Assembly (NCBI RefSeq): GCF_019879105.1
Contig: NZ_CP082249.1
Location: 1,302,001-1,366,000 of the forward strand
Length of the DNA stretch: 64,000 nucleotides
From: Natrinema sp. SYSU A 869
Lineage (GTDB): Archaea; Halobacteriota; Halobacteria; Halobacteriales; Natrialbaceae
Direction: 5' to 3'
The first letter of the stretch is position 1, and each line of letters starts with the position of its first letter. A program made the position numbers and the translations under genes. The notes under the pieces are model-generated. The model was not told the DNA's origin, made no database searches, and worked only from the letters and a program-made list of their open reading frames with translations. Of this stretch, positions 7,002-9,398 are shown in pieces.

Positions 7002-8339
7002 TCACAACGCTGCCGTCACCTCGTCCAGCACCATGGTATCGACGAACATGACGACGTGATCGCCGCCCTCGACGACCGTCTCGCCACGCGGCGTGATCAA
7101 CTCCCCCGCGCGGCTGATCGCACCGACGACGACGCCGTCGGGTAGCTTGGCCATCGCGTCCTGAATCCGTCGCTCGAAGAGGGCGCTGTCGGCGTCGATC
7201 TCGATCTCGAGGACCTCCGCGCGGTCGGACTCGAGCATGGCGACGTTTTCCGTCCGCTGCTCGCGAGTGAATCTGGTAATCTCCTCGGAGGTGACGAGCC
7301 GGGGGTTGACGCCGACGTCGATCCCAACCGTCTCGAAGAGGTCGACGTACTCGCCGGACTCGACGATCCCGATGGTGCGCTCGACGCCGATCCGCTTTGC
7401 CAGCAGGGAGACCAGCAGGTTCCGTTCGTCGCCCTCGAGCGCGGCGACGACGATGTCGGACTCGTCGACGTGTTCCCGGACGAGGAAGTCGATGTCGGTC
7501 GCGTCGCTCTCTAAGACCAGCGTCCCCGGGAGCTTCTCGGCTAGTTCCCGTGCCCGCTTGGGATCTTGTTCGACTAGTCGCGGCTCGAGTCCCTCCTCTT
7601 CGAAGAGCCGAGCCGTCTGATAGCCGATCTCGGTTCCGCCGACGATGACGATCTCGTGTGCGTCCTCGAGGGTCGGTCCGGGCGTCAGCGACCCCGCGAA
7701 GGCGCGGACGCTCTCCCGCGAGCCGATAACGACGACGGCGTCTCCCGCTCTGATGACCGTCTCCCCCTGCGGGATAATGACATCGTCGTCGCGCAGCAAC
7801 GCGGCGAAGGTCAACGACTCGAACCGGTCGGCCTCGGAAACCGTCTCGCCGGCGATGGGACTATCCGATCCGATTTCGAACTCGGCCATCTGGATGAGTC
7901 CGCCAGCGAAGGTCTCAACGTCGTGTGCGCCGGGTAAGCCGGCGATTCGGACGATCGTCTCGGCGGTCTGCAGATCCGTACAGACCATGAAATCGATGCC
8001 GAACGCCCCTTTCGACTGCTCCCAGGTCCGAAGGAGGTTCGTTTTCTTGACGCGGGCGATCGTGAACGGATTACCGACGGCCTTCGCAGCCCCACAGATG
8101 ACGATGTTCGTCTCGTCGACGTCGGTACTCGCGATGACCAGATCAGCGTTCTCGATGTCGGCCTCTCGCAGCGTCTCGATCGAGGTCCCGTCGCCCTGAA
8201 TCGCCAACACGTCATAGGAGTAGGTGATCGACTCGACGCGATCGGAGTCCGTGTCGATGACGACCACGTGATGGTCGTCGTCAAGGCTCGCAGCGATGTT
8301 CGATCCGACCTCGCCCGCACCGATGACGATCACACGCAT
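7002..8339 (-). CDS. trkA: Trk potassium uptake regulatory protein TrkA
   Basis: This 445-aa cytoplasmic protein gates Trk-type potassium channels in response to nucleotides. It has the duplicated layout RCK_N, RCK_C, RCK_N, RCK_C. The first Rossmann loop is VIVIGAGEVGSNIA at residues 3-16. A TrkA_C domain lies at about 136-217, a second nucleotide-binding loop (IVIVGGTEIGYQTARL) at about 231-246, and a final TrkA_C domain runs to the end. High intracellular potassium is central to haloarchaeal osmoadaptation. No trkH channel gene is adjacent, so the partner must be encoded elsewhere. The gene is downstream of and convergent with the FAD oxidoreductase, only 8 nt away. Confidence 0.95.
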   Translation of the reverse strand: MRVIVIGAGEVGSNIAASLDDDHHVVVIDTDSDRVESITYSYDVLAIQGDGTSIETLREADIENADLVIASTDVDETNIVICGAAKAVGNPFTIARVKKTNLLRTWEQSKGAFGIDFMVCTDLQTAETIVRIAGLPGAHDVETFAGGLIQMAEFEIGSDSPIAGETVSEADRFESLTFAALLRDDDVIIPQGETVIRAGDAVVVIGSRESVRAFAGSLTPGPTLEDAHEIVIVGGTEIGYQTARLFEEEGLEPRLVEQDPKRARELAEKLPGTLVLESDATDIDFLVREHVDESDIVVAALEGDERNLLVSLLAKRIGVERTIGIVESGEYVDLFETVGIDVGVNPRLVTSEEITRFTREQRTENVAMLESDRAEVLEIEIDADSALFERRIQDAMAKLPDGVVVGAISRAGELITPRGETVVEGGDHVVMFVDTMVLDEVTAAL

Positions 8340-8876
8340 CAGGACCTCACCCGCGGGGATCGCTGTCTCGAGTCGGCACAGATTCCCCTCATGTCAGCAG
8401 TGTCGGCTGCCGAGCAGTAAGTGGGTTTGGCCTGATCAGGACAGTACAGGCCAGGGACTTACCGCAACGGGCATCCGCGAGCGAAGCGAGCGGTTGCTAC
8501 GAGAGAGCGTTGCTCTCTCGGCATCAAGCGAAATCTTCGGGTTCACGGACGGCGAGAGATCTCCGATCCCTCGAGCAGTCGGTGCGAAGTCGCTAGAACG
8601 ACCGAAGATCGTTCGTGATACCGAAAATCTTCGATTTTCGGGCCACGCCGACGACCTCGCGAAGTTTAGCGGGACGTCCGTCCCGCTGACCTCGCGAGAG
8701 TGATTCGAAAGGTGCGTTTGGACCTTTCGTCATCACGAGACGGCGGAGCCGTCTCGAACGACTTCGCTCCCGCTTAGCGTTACTCCGTTCAGGGTCGTGC
8801 GAACGGGCCAATGGTCCGTGAGCAGACGAGCGGTGAGCGAGCACTGCGAGCGAACCCGAGGCGGAAAAAGGGACGT
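8340..8876. other. 537-base intergenic region rich in hairpins
   Basis: No gene is supported. Open frames crossing it are Arg/Ser-rich and have no acidic haloarchaeal signature. Its central part is the hairpin array described separately (8500-8756). The trkA promoter should lie at the left end. Confidence 0.6.
8500..8756. repeat. array of perfect short hairpins
   Basis: At least six inverted repeats follow one another. 8500-8520 has a 9-bp stem with loop GTT. 8596-8614 has a 6-bp stem and 7-nt loop. 8621-8641 has a 9-bp stem with loop TTC. 8668-8687 has an 8-bp stem with a 4-nt loop and is flanked by the direct repeat GACCTCGCGA (8653-8662 and 8688-8697). 8706-8729 has an 8-bp stem and 8-nt loop. 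8736-8756 has a 9-bp stem with loop GGA. The stem sequences all differ, so what is shared is the architecture. A similar string occurs at 30380-30606. Confidence 0.8.
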
Positions 8877-9398
8877 TCACGGCATCTCGTGAATTGTTAA
8901 CTCGACGTCTCGCGGGCGGCCCTCGATGTCTGCAACCAGTCGCTCGACGACCGTCTGAGCCTCGCCGAGCAGTTTGGGTTGGACCTTCTTGACGACCCAG
9001 TCCAGCGAGACGAACCGCGGGAGCGAGATGGCGTTTTTGTCCGCCGAATGCGGATCGTAAACGGCCTCGAAGTAGATCCGGCTCGCCGTCTCCGCGTCCG
9101 GCGGTGCGGACTCGGGCTCCGGTTCGACGCGCCACTCGCCGCGGGCGTCGATGTCGTTGACCAGCTGCCACGTGAGCGACTCGGGGGCCGAAATATCGGT
9201 CACCCGCGAACGAGCGGTGTAGCTGAGCTTCCACCACGCCAACTTGAGGTCGTAGACGGAACCGACGCCATCATCGCCGTTGACTCGAACCTCCTTCAGG
9301 TGGTCCGTGTACCGCGGGTAGTCGGTAAAGGACTGGACGTACGGGAAGACCTCCTCGGGCGACCGATGTGCGAGCGTACTGAGGAGAATTCTGTCCAC
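8877..9398 (-). CDS. SRPBCC (START-like / Coq10-type) lipid-binding family protein, 173 aa
   Basis: The protein has the helix-grip fold signature of polyketide cyclase/Coq10-type proteins. It opens with AHRSPEEVFPYVQSFTDYPRY, characteristic of membrane-quinone or lipid carriers of this superfamily, and continues with alternating beta strands. A long C-terminal amphipathic helix follows (about 130-155, with VVKKVQPKLLGEAQTVVERLV). No membrane span or signal is present, so it is probably cytoplasmic. The ligand is not predictable; the similarity to Coq10-type START proteins makes a quinone or isoprenoid possible. It stands alone beside the hairpin array. Confidence 0.82.
   Translation of the reverse strand: MDRILLSTLAHRSPEEVFPYVQSFTDYPRYTDHLKEVRVNGDDGVGSVYDLKLAWWKLSYTARSRVTDISAPESLTWQLVNDIDARGEWRVEPEPESAPPDAETASRIYFEAVYDPHSADKNAISLPRFVSLDWVVKKVQPKLLGEAQTVVERLVADIEGRPRDVELTIHEMP

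Follow-up and report, generated by a model that had tools for sequence, protein, structure and literature searches.

A probable mobile double-hairpin element dispersed among haloarchaeal genomes

The hairpin array next to trkA

In the window, the whole 64 kb stretch of DNA that was analysed, a gap of 537 nt (8340-8876) separates trkA (7002-8339, minus strand) from an SRPBCC/polyketide-cyclase gene (8877-9398, minus strand). The first-pass annotation had reported six hairpins, three of them exactly 9-3-9, in this noncoding DNA. This was right in substance, as the gap contains five perfect hairpins with arms of at least 8 and three additional, slightly decayed ones (Table 1). The high hairpin density was confirmed against dinucleotide-shuffled sequence: 500 shuffles of the gap gave a mean of 0.118 hairpins with such arms and a maximum of 2, and in the window, to which this measurement refers, 40 were counted against 16.2 expected. 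When folded as a single strand, the hairpin stretch had a z of -7.2 as DNA and -6.4 as RNA, relative to shuffles.

The trkA gap is syntenic among the congeners, and the array is missing in the closest relatives. In G014 the gap aligned on both sides and represents the empty counterpart of 8488-8812. Most congeners have a short gap with no hairpins; in G021 and G028, different hairpin arrays (L099 and L100), unlike that of the window, are inserted into the same gap. G002, where some 20 kb separate the two flanking genes, was left out of this comparison. Another dispersed repeat, GACGAGCGGTGAGCGAGCACTGCGAGCGAACCCGAGGCGGAAAAAGGG, with a length of about 48 nt, was observed at 8827-8874. Copies with 83-96% identity occur in several congeners, and relatives without the array have related sequence in their syntenic gap as well.

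Table 1. Features of the hairpin array, with positions in the window (G, genomes; L, loci)
Feature	Position	Strand	Comparison
Whole insertion (hairpin array)	8488-8812		Relative to congener G014, syntenic gap collinear on both sides; global alignment with one gap, after GGGCAxCCGCGAGCGAAGC and before CCGTGAGCAG
Perfect 9-3-9 hairpin, first of the long-form array, followed by linker GCATCAAG	8500-8520	+	Counterparts CGAGAGACC-AAA-GGTCTCTCG in L002 and CGAGAGAGC-TCT-GCTCTCTCG in L003
Decayed hairpin GCGAAATC TTC GGGTTCAC	8528-8546	+	Intact relative GCGAAACC-TTC-GGTTTCGC in L011 and L013
9-3-9 hairpin with one A.C mismatch	8553-8573	+	Intact relative CGAGGGATC-TCC-GATCCCTCG in L014
Hairpin GTCGGTGC-GAA-GCGCCGAC split by unit 1	8578-8652	+	Arms 8578-8585 and 8646-8652; uninterrupted GTCGGCGC-GAA-GCGCCGAC in L002 and L003
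Double-hairpin unit 1, reverse orientation, partly decayed	8590-8645	-	Model R1 match at 1310589-1310646 (-), E 6e-9; intact copies in L005 and L006
Slightly decayed hairpin	8595-8615		
Hairpin 1 of unit 1, perfect 9-3-9	8621-8641	-	Plus-strand loop TTC; GAA in L005, GGA in L006
9-2-9 hairpin AGCGGGACG TC CGTCCCGCT of the long-form array, followed by GACCTC	8668-8687	+	Counterpart in L002-L004
Hairpin GCGAGAGC-TTC-GCTCCCGC split by unit 2	8694-8773	+	Arms 8694-8700 and 8762-8773; unit 2 flanks in L002 and L003 join to GCGGGAGC-TTC-GCTCCCGC, 8-3-8
Double-hairpin unit 2, TGATT-hp1-TCATCA-hp2-AACGA	8701-8761	+	Model R1, E 7.7e-15; boundaries from empty sites elsewhere
Hairpin 1 of unit 2, 8-8-8	8706-8729	+	10-4-10 in L002 and L003
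Hairpin 2 of unit 2, perfect 9-3-9	8736-8756	+	Perfect-hairpin scan

Two copies of a double-hairpin unit lie within the array, each of them splitting another hairpin. In L002 and L003 the first split hairpin was seen intact, and the second is predicted there from the joined flanks. The long-form array around the units, with the linkers GCATCAAG, GGACAGG/GGACxGG, TTGCA, GCAGTC, GACCTC and TCAGTCA, recurs elsewhere. When flanks were joined across the unit, a stem of at least 7 bp was formed in 15 of 72 cases, compared with 3.05 (maximum 9) for swapped flanks. Hairpin targeting is a preference and not a rule. Hairpin arrays were also noted beside tRNA genes in L002, L021 and L030, where parts of the tRNA 3' end are duplicated; the tRNA in L002 and L021 is tRNA-Gly-like.

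Structure and distribution of the unit

Comparison of the gap with its own genome revealed many partial copies, which had hairpins with mostly three-base loops, recurring linkers and stems that differ but pair. The minimal recurring unit is TGGTT-[hairpin]-TCATCA-[hairpin]-AACGA with a length of 54-65 nt, or GTGGTT...AACGAC when the flanking bases are included. A first set of units was anchored on the linkers alone, whereas an enlarged set of 112 units also required 5 of 6 outer pairs. TGGTT was conserved in 99, TCATCA in 109 and AACGA in 106 of the 112 units (88-97%), and the base preceding the unit was G in 104. The palindromes sit 5 nt from each end, and the ends TGGTT and AACGA match as an inverted repeat at only 4 of 5 bases. 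The loops were mostly GAA/TTC, GGA/TCC or AAA/TTT, and the closing pair was C-G in 203 of 224 cases; C-GAA-G is an exceptionally stable DNA mini-hairpin.

The 112 units contain 131 distinct hairpins, with Watson-Crick pairs in 1071 of 1122 pair cells (about 95%). In this enlarged set, where the selection somewhat enriches pairing, 7.78 and 7.76 of 8 stem positions were paired, compared with 5.7 and 5.6 when arms of different copies were exchanged (2000 swaps, highest value about 6.1), and pairing at the variable inner four positions dropped from 3.8 to 2.3. In the linker-only set, pairing was 7.4 and 7.1, and about 5.3 after arm swapping. The earlier proposal that pairing is kept without sequence similarity was therefore borne out. 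Among copies with similar flanks, 8 pairs were changed on both sides with the pairing kept and 14 were changed on one side. Their loops differed in 22 of 50 comparisons, 8 of the 22 being exact inversions. The stem mismatches were G.T in 18 and A.C in 14 cases; this absence of a wobble bias gives no sign of one strand being read as RNA.

The distribution was determined with a covariance model (R1) built from ten copies. The own genome had 70 matches at E <=1 and about 32 distinct places at E <=0.01. The unit was detected in 28 of the 29 congeneric genomes searched and in 131 of 145 sampled genomes of Halobacteria, covering 54 of 58 genera, and outside this class weak matches came from just two related genomes among the roughly 101 examined elsewhere in the phylum. 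The exact pattern occurred at 15 places in 84,980 genomes, and the named organisms were all haloarchaea, except for one bin called 'Euryarchaeota archaeon'. Plasmids with a match were also haloarchaeal, among them those of Haloferax mediterranei and Natronomonas pharaonis. A viral or phage origin was rejected, as viral contigs gave no exact pattern match and phages no BLAST match. In G201, a genome from outside Halobacteria, two hairpins joined by the linker CATAT were observed beside an apparent TnpB zinc-finger coding end (L314 and L316), which hints at a connection with the right ends of IS605.

Filled and empty sites

The insertion points were exact and lie mostly between G and C, and no target duplication was detected in any filled/empty case compared, including the tnpB alignments. 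Among the IS605-type tnpB elements, three carry a unit of 56-57 bp at CCGTGG^ACTCGG at the 3' end of tnpB and five are without it. The filled tnpB of L284 and the empty one of L287 differ by 57 bp, and their flanks are identical at 290 of 300 and 63 of 65 nt (about 97%). These tnpB ends adjoin CTCGGCxTAGCCGAG. In the own genome, a relative of the unit with a TGATCA linker (L065, G000:C2:336024-336079) interrupts an IS200 tnpA at CTGTCG^CTCCAC. In two further loci the unit was found in frame within long open frames, at 1501-1561 of L088 (792 codons, with FAD-oxidase C-terminal and 4Fe-4S domains) and at 1478-1538 of L012 (715 codons).

Units were also found in larger repeats. At G000:C3:2135953 the unit is inside a structured multicopy repeat, and congeners without it read AGACCG^CAGAGC. 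In genomes of the genus g20 the unit's host is a repeat present in over 40 copies, and the joined empty 80-mer was found at 98% in G052 and G061. G040 has the unit in its TGATCA form within a host repeat whose flanks, AATCAACG^CCTGTGGAG, recur in L159. Many copies are accounted for by hitch-hiking in a larger host repeat, and for some copies loss instead of gain is conceivable. A structured multicopy repeat, CGGCCGGGAGC...GGGGGAGGGCAGGC...GGAGGAGTGCTTTTGATCGAAATTTTGCC-hairpin-GCAGAGCAAAATTTCG, was seen in L052 (1330-1560) and L184-L194; it occurs in several copies in most congeners, has no Rfam match and hosts many double-hairpin units. The g20 repeat, AGCACCGCAGGGAGCGAACGGAGTGAGCGACC...GGCTGGGGCTTTGGAGG, was seen in L253-L282 (G035, G037, G052 and G061); each genome has over 40 copies, many of which are unit-free.

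Interpretation as a probable mobile element

The class-wide dispersal, the exact ends, the clean insertion, the hairpin preference and the fixed linkers with paired changes in the stems, as read from the sequences, suggest that the array consists of nested copies of a non-coding, non-autonomous haloarchaeal mobile element (probability about 0.82). Movement of the element is deduced from genome comparison, and it probably acts as folded DNA. Among the options of the first-pass annotation, a protein-recognised DNA element came nearest to this, and a structured RNA is not favoured.

In the open-access literature, no prior haloarchaeal description of such a unit was found besides the SMRs and PATEs. 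SMR-A of Haloquadratum walsbyi is about 110 bp long, with prominent inverted ends and more than 95% identity within a type (PMC3119063). It shares with the unit that it is non-coding, has many copies, shows no target duplication and inserts into palindromes of IS605-type elements and PATEs (PMC3119063); for the unit, such insertion was seen in tnpB, tnpA and the stems of joined flanks but not in all copies. Its length of 54-65 nt, the imperfect 5-nt ends, the many distinct but paired stems and the class-wide occurrence set the unit apart from the SMR-A description. The PATEs (palindrome-associated transposable elements) include 52-bp terminal-only forms, and their palindromes resemble IS605 ends in sequence (PMC3119063). 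Like the unit, they are short and haloarchaeal, with two near-terminal palindromes and no target duplication (PMC3119063). The unit may differ from them in that only its linkers are conserved and its stems are arbitrary.

Similar structures are known from other systems. The mitochondrial double-hairpin or repetitive hairpin-forming elements of Allomyces and sponges also have two tandem hairpins, are dispersed and clustered, and occur in genes as well (PMC2800124), and the unit likewise has tandem hairpins, is dispersed and appears mobile by comparison. They differ in residing in an organelle and not in an archaeon, and the sponge elements have conserved stems and variable loops (PMC2800124), whereas here the stems vary and the pairing is kept. 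The REPIN/RAYT system involves short, non-autonomous double palindromes (PMC3116915). This description also fits the unit. In REPINs the palindromes are conserved and associated with a RAYT gene of the Y1 family, whereas the copy number of the unit does not follow Y1 genes: G037, G051 and G096 have 32-34 unit matches each and no PF01797, and PF01797 is present in several genomes with no copy. Y1 transposases act on hairpins without target duplication and are therefore the obvious candidates, but these genomes do not support a Y1 transposase as the sole driver.

Hairpins of a transcript, such as an ncRNA, a guide RNA scaffold or a UTR element, would have their pairs kept by selection on the RNA, and the strong RNA fold, the stem covariation and the overlap of some copies with the 3' end of tnpB, the location of omega RNAs, would fit this. 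We consider a structured RNA improbable, since the mismatches lack a wobble bias, the loops are seen in either orientation, the unit is entirely absent from five tnpB elements and copies are found both ways round in varied contexts, including within genes and within one another. Rfam also gave no family at the gathering score in the window and a single match, at chance level, in five related loci. Even less credit can be given to a purely mutational product, in which template switching makes and keeps the hairpins with neither a mobile unit nor selection. The hairpin excess throughout the window and the loops that invert while the stems stay identical are in line with it, but three fixed linkers across 54 genera and the clean 57-bp filled and empty sites require a shared copied unit. 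Template switching as the whole explanation is thus contradicted; it may nevertheless be how the stems are kept perfect. A regulatory or terminator array would be suitably placed between two co-oriented genes, yet the array is missing in most syntenic congeners and those of G021 and G028 differ, so this reading is hardly credible. A conserved role at trkA is refuted by the synteny, and a local array acting on this gene was not supported, since the array consists of nested copies of a class-wide dispersed element. A strain-specific effect at trkA is possible.

Within the mobile-element reading, the unit might be a stripped pair of IS200/IS605 ends moved by the Y1 transposase of these elements, as a relative of SMR-A and the PATEs. 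The absent target duplication, the palindromes near both ends, the insertion into IS605-type elements and palindromes, all as described for Haloquadratum, and the copies in tnpB and tnpA argue for it, but high-copy genomes without a Y1 match, the lack of a fixed target tetranucleotide and the variable stems, where SMRs are reported to be more than 95% identical, make it rather unlikely. Somewhat better placed, though still tentative, is a class-wide family of minimal elements of about 60 nt that is read by its folded shape and three short linkers and not by its stem sequence, spreads into other hairpins and is moved by an enzyme other than a known Y1 transposase.

For the mobile double-hairpin element we propose that an enzyme would recognise the folded single strand with its two short-loop hairpins and conserved linkers. 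Such recognition would leave the stem sequence free and constrain the pairing and the linkers. Hairpin loops, which expose single-stranded or cruciform DNA, would be the preferred landing sites, and copies would therefore stack up. Intra-strand template switching at the inverted repeats would refresh perfect stems and invert loops. No role of the array for trkA would be expected.

One small mobile unit would explain the clusters of perfect short-loop hairpins that are widespread in haloarchaeal genomes. The mechanism can be tested on the exactly defined filled and empty sites, and the unit is relevant to genome annotation because it breaks or extends genes such as tnpA and tnpB. Since the stems vary and the linkers are constant, hundreds of natural variants would directly reveal what the recognising factor reads.
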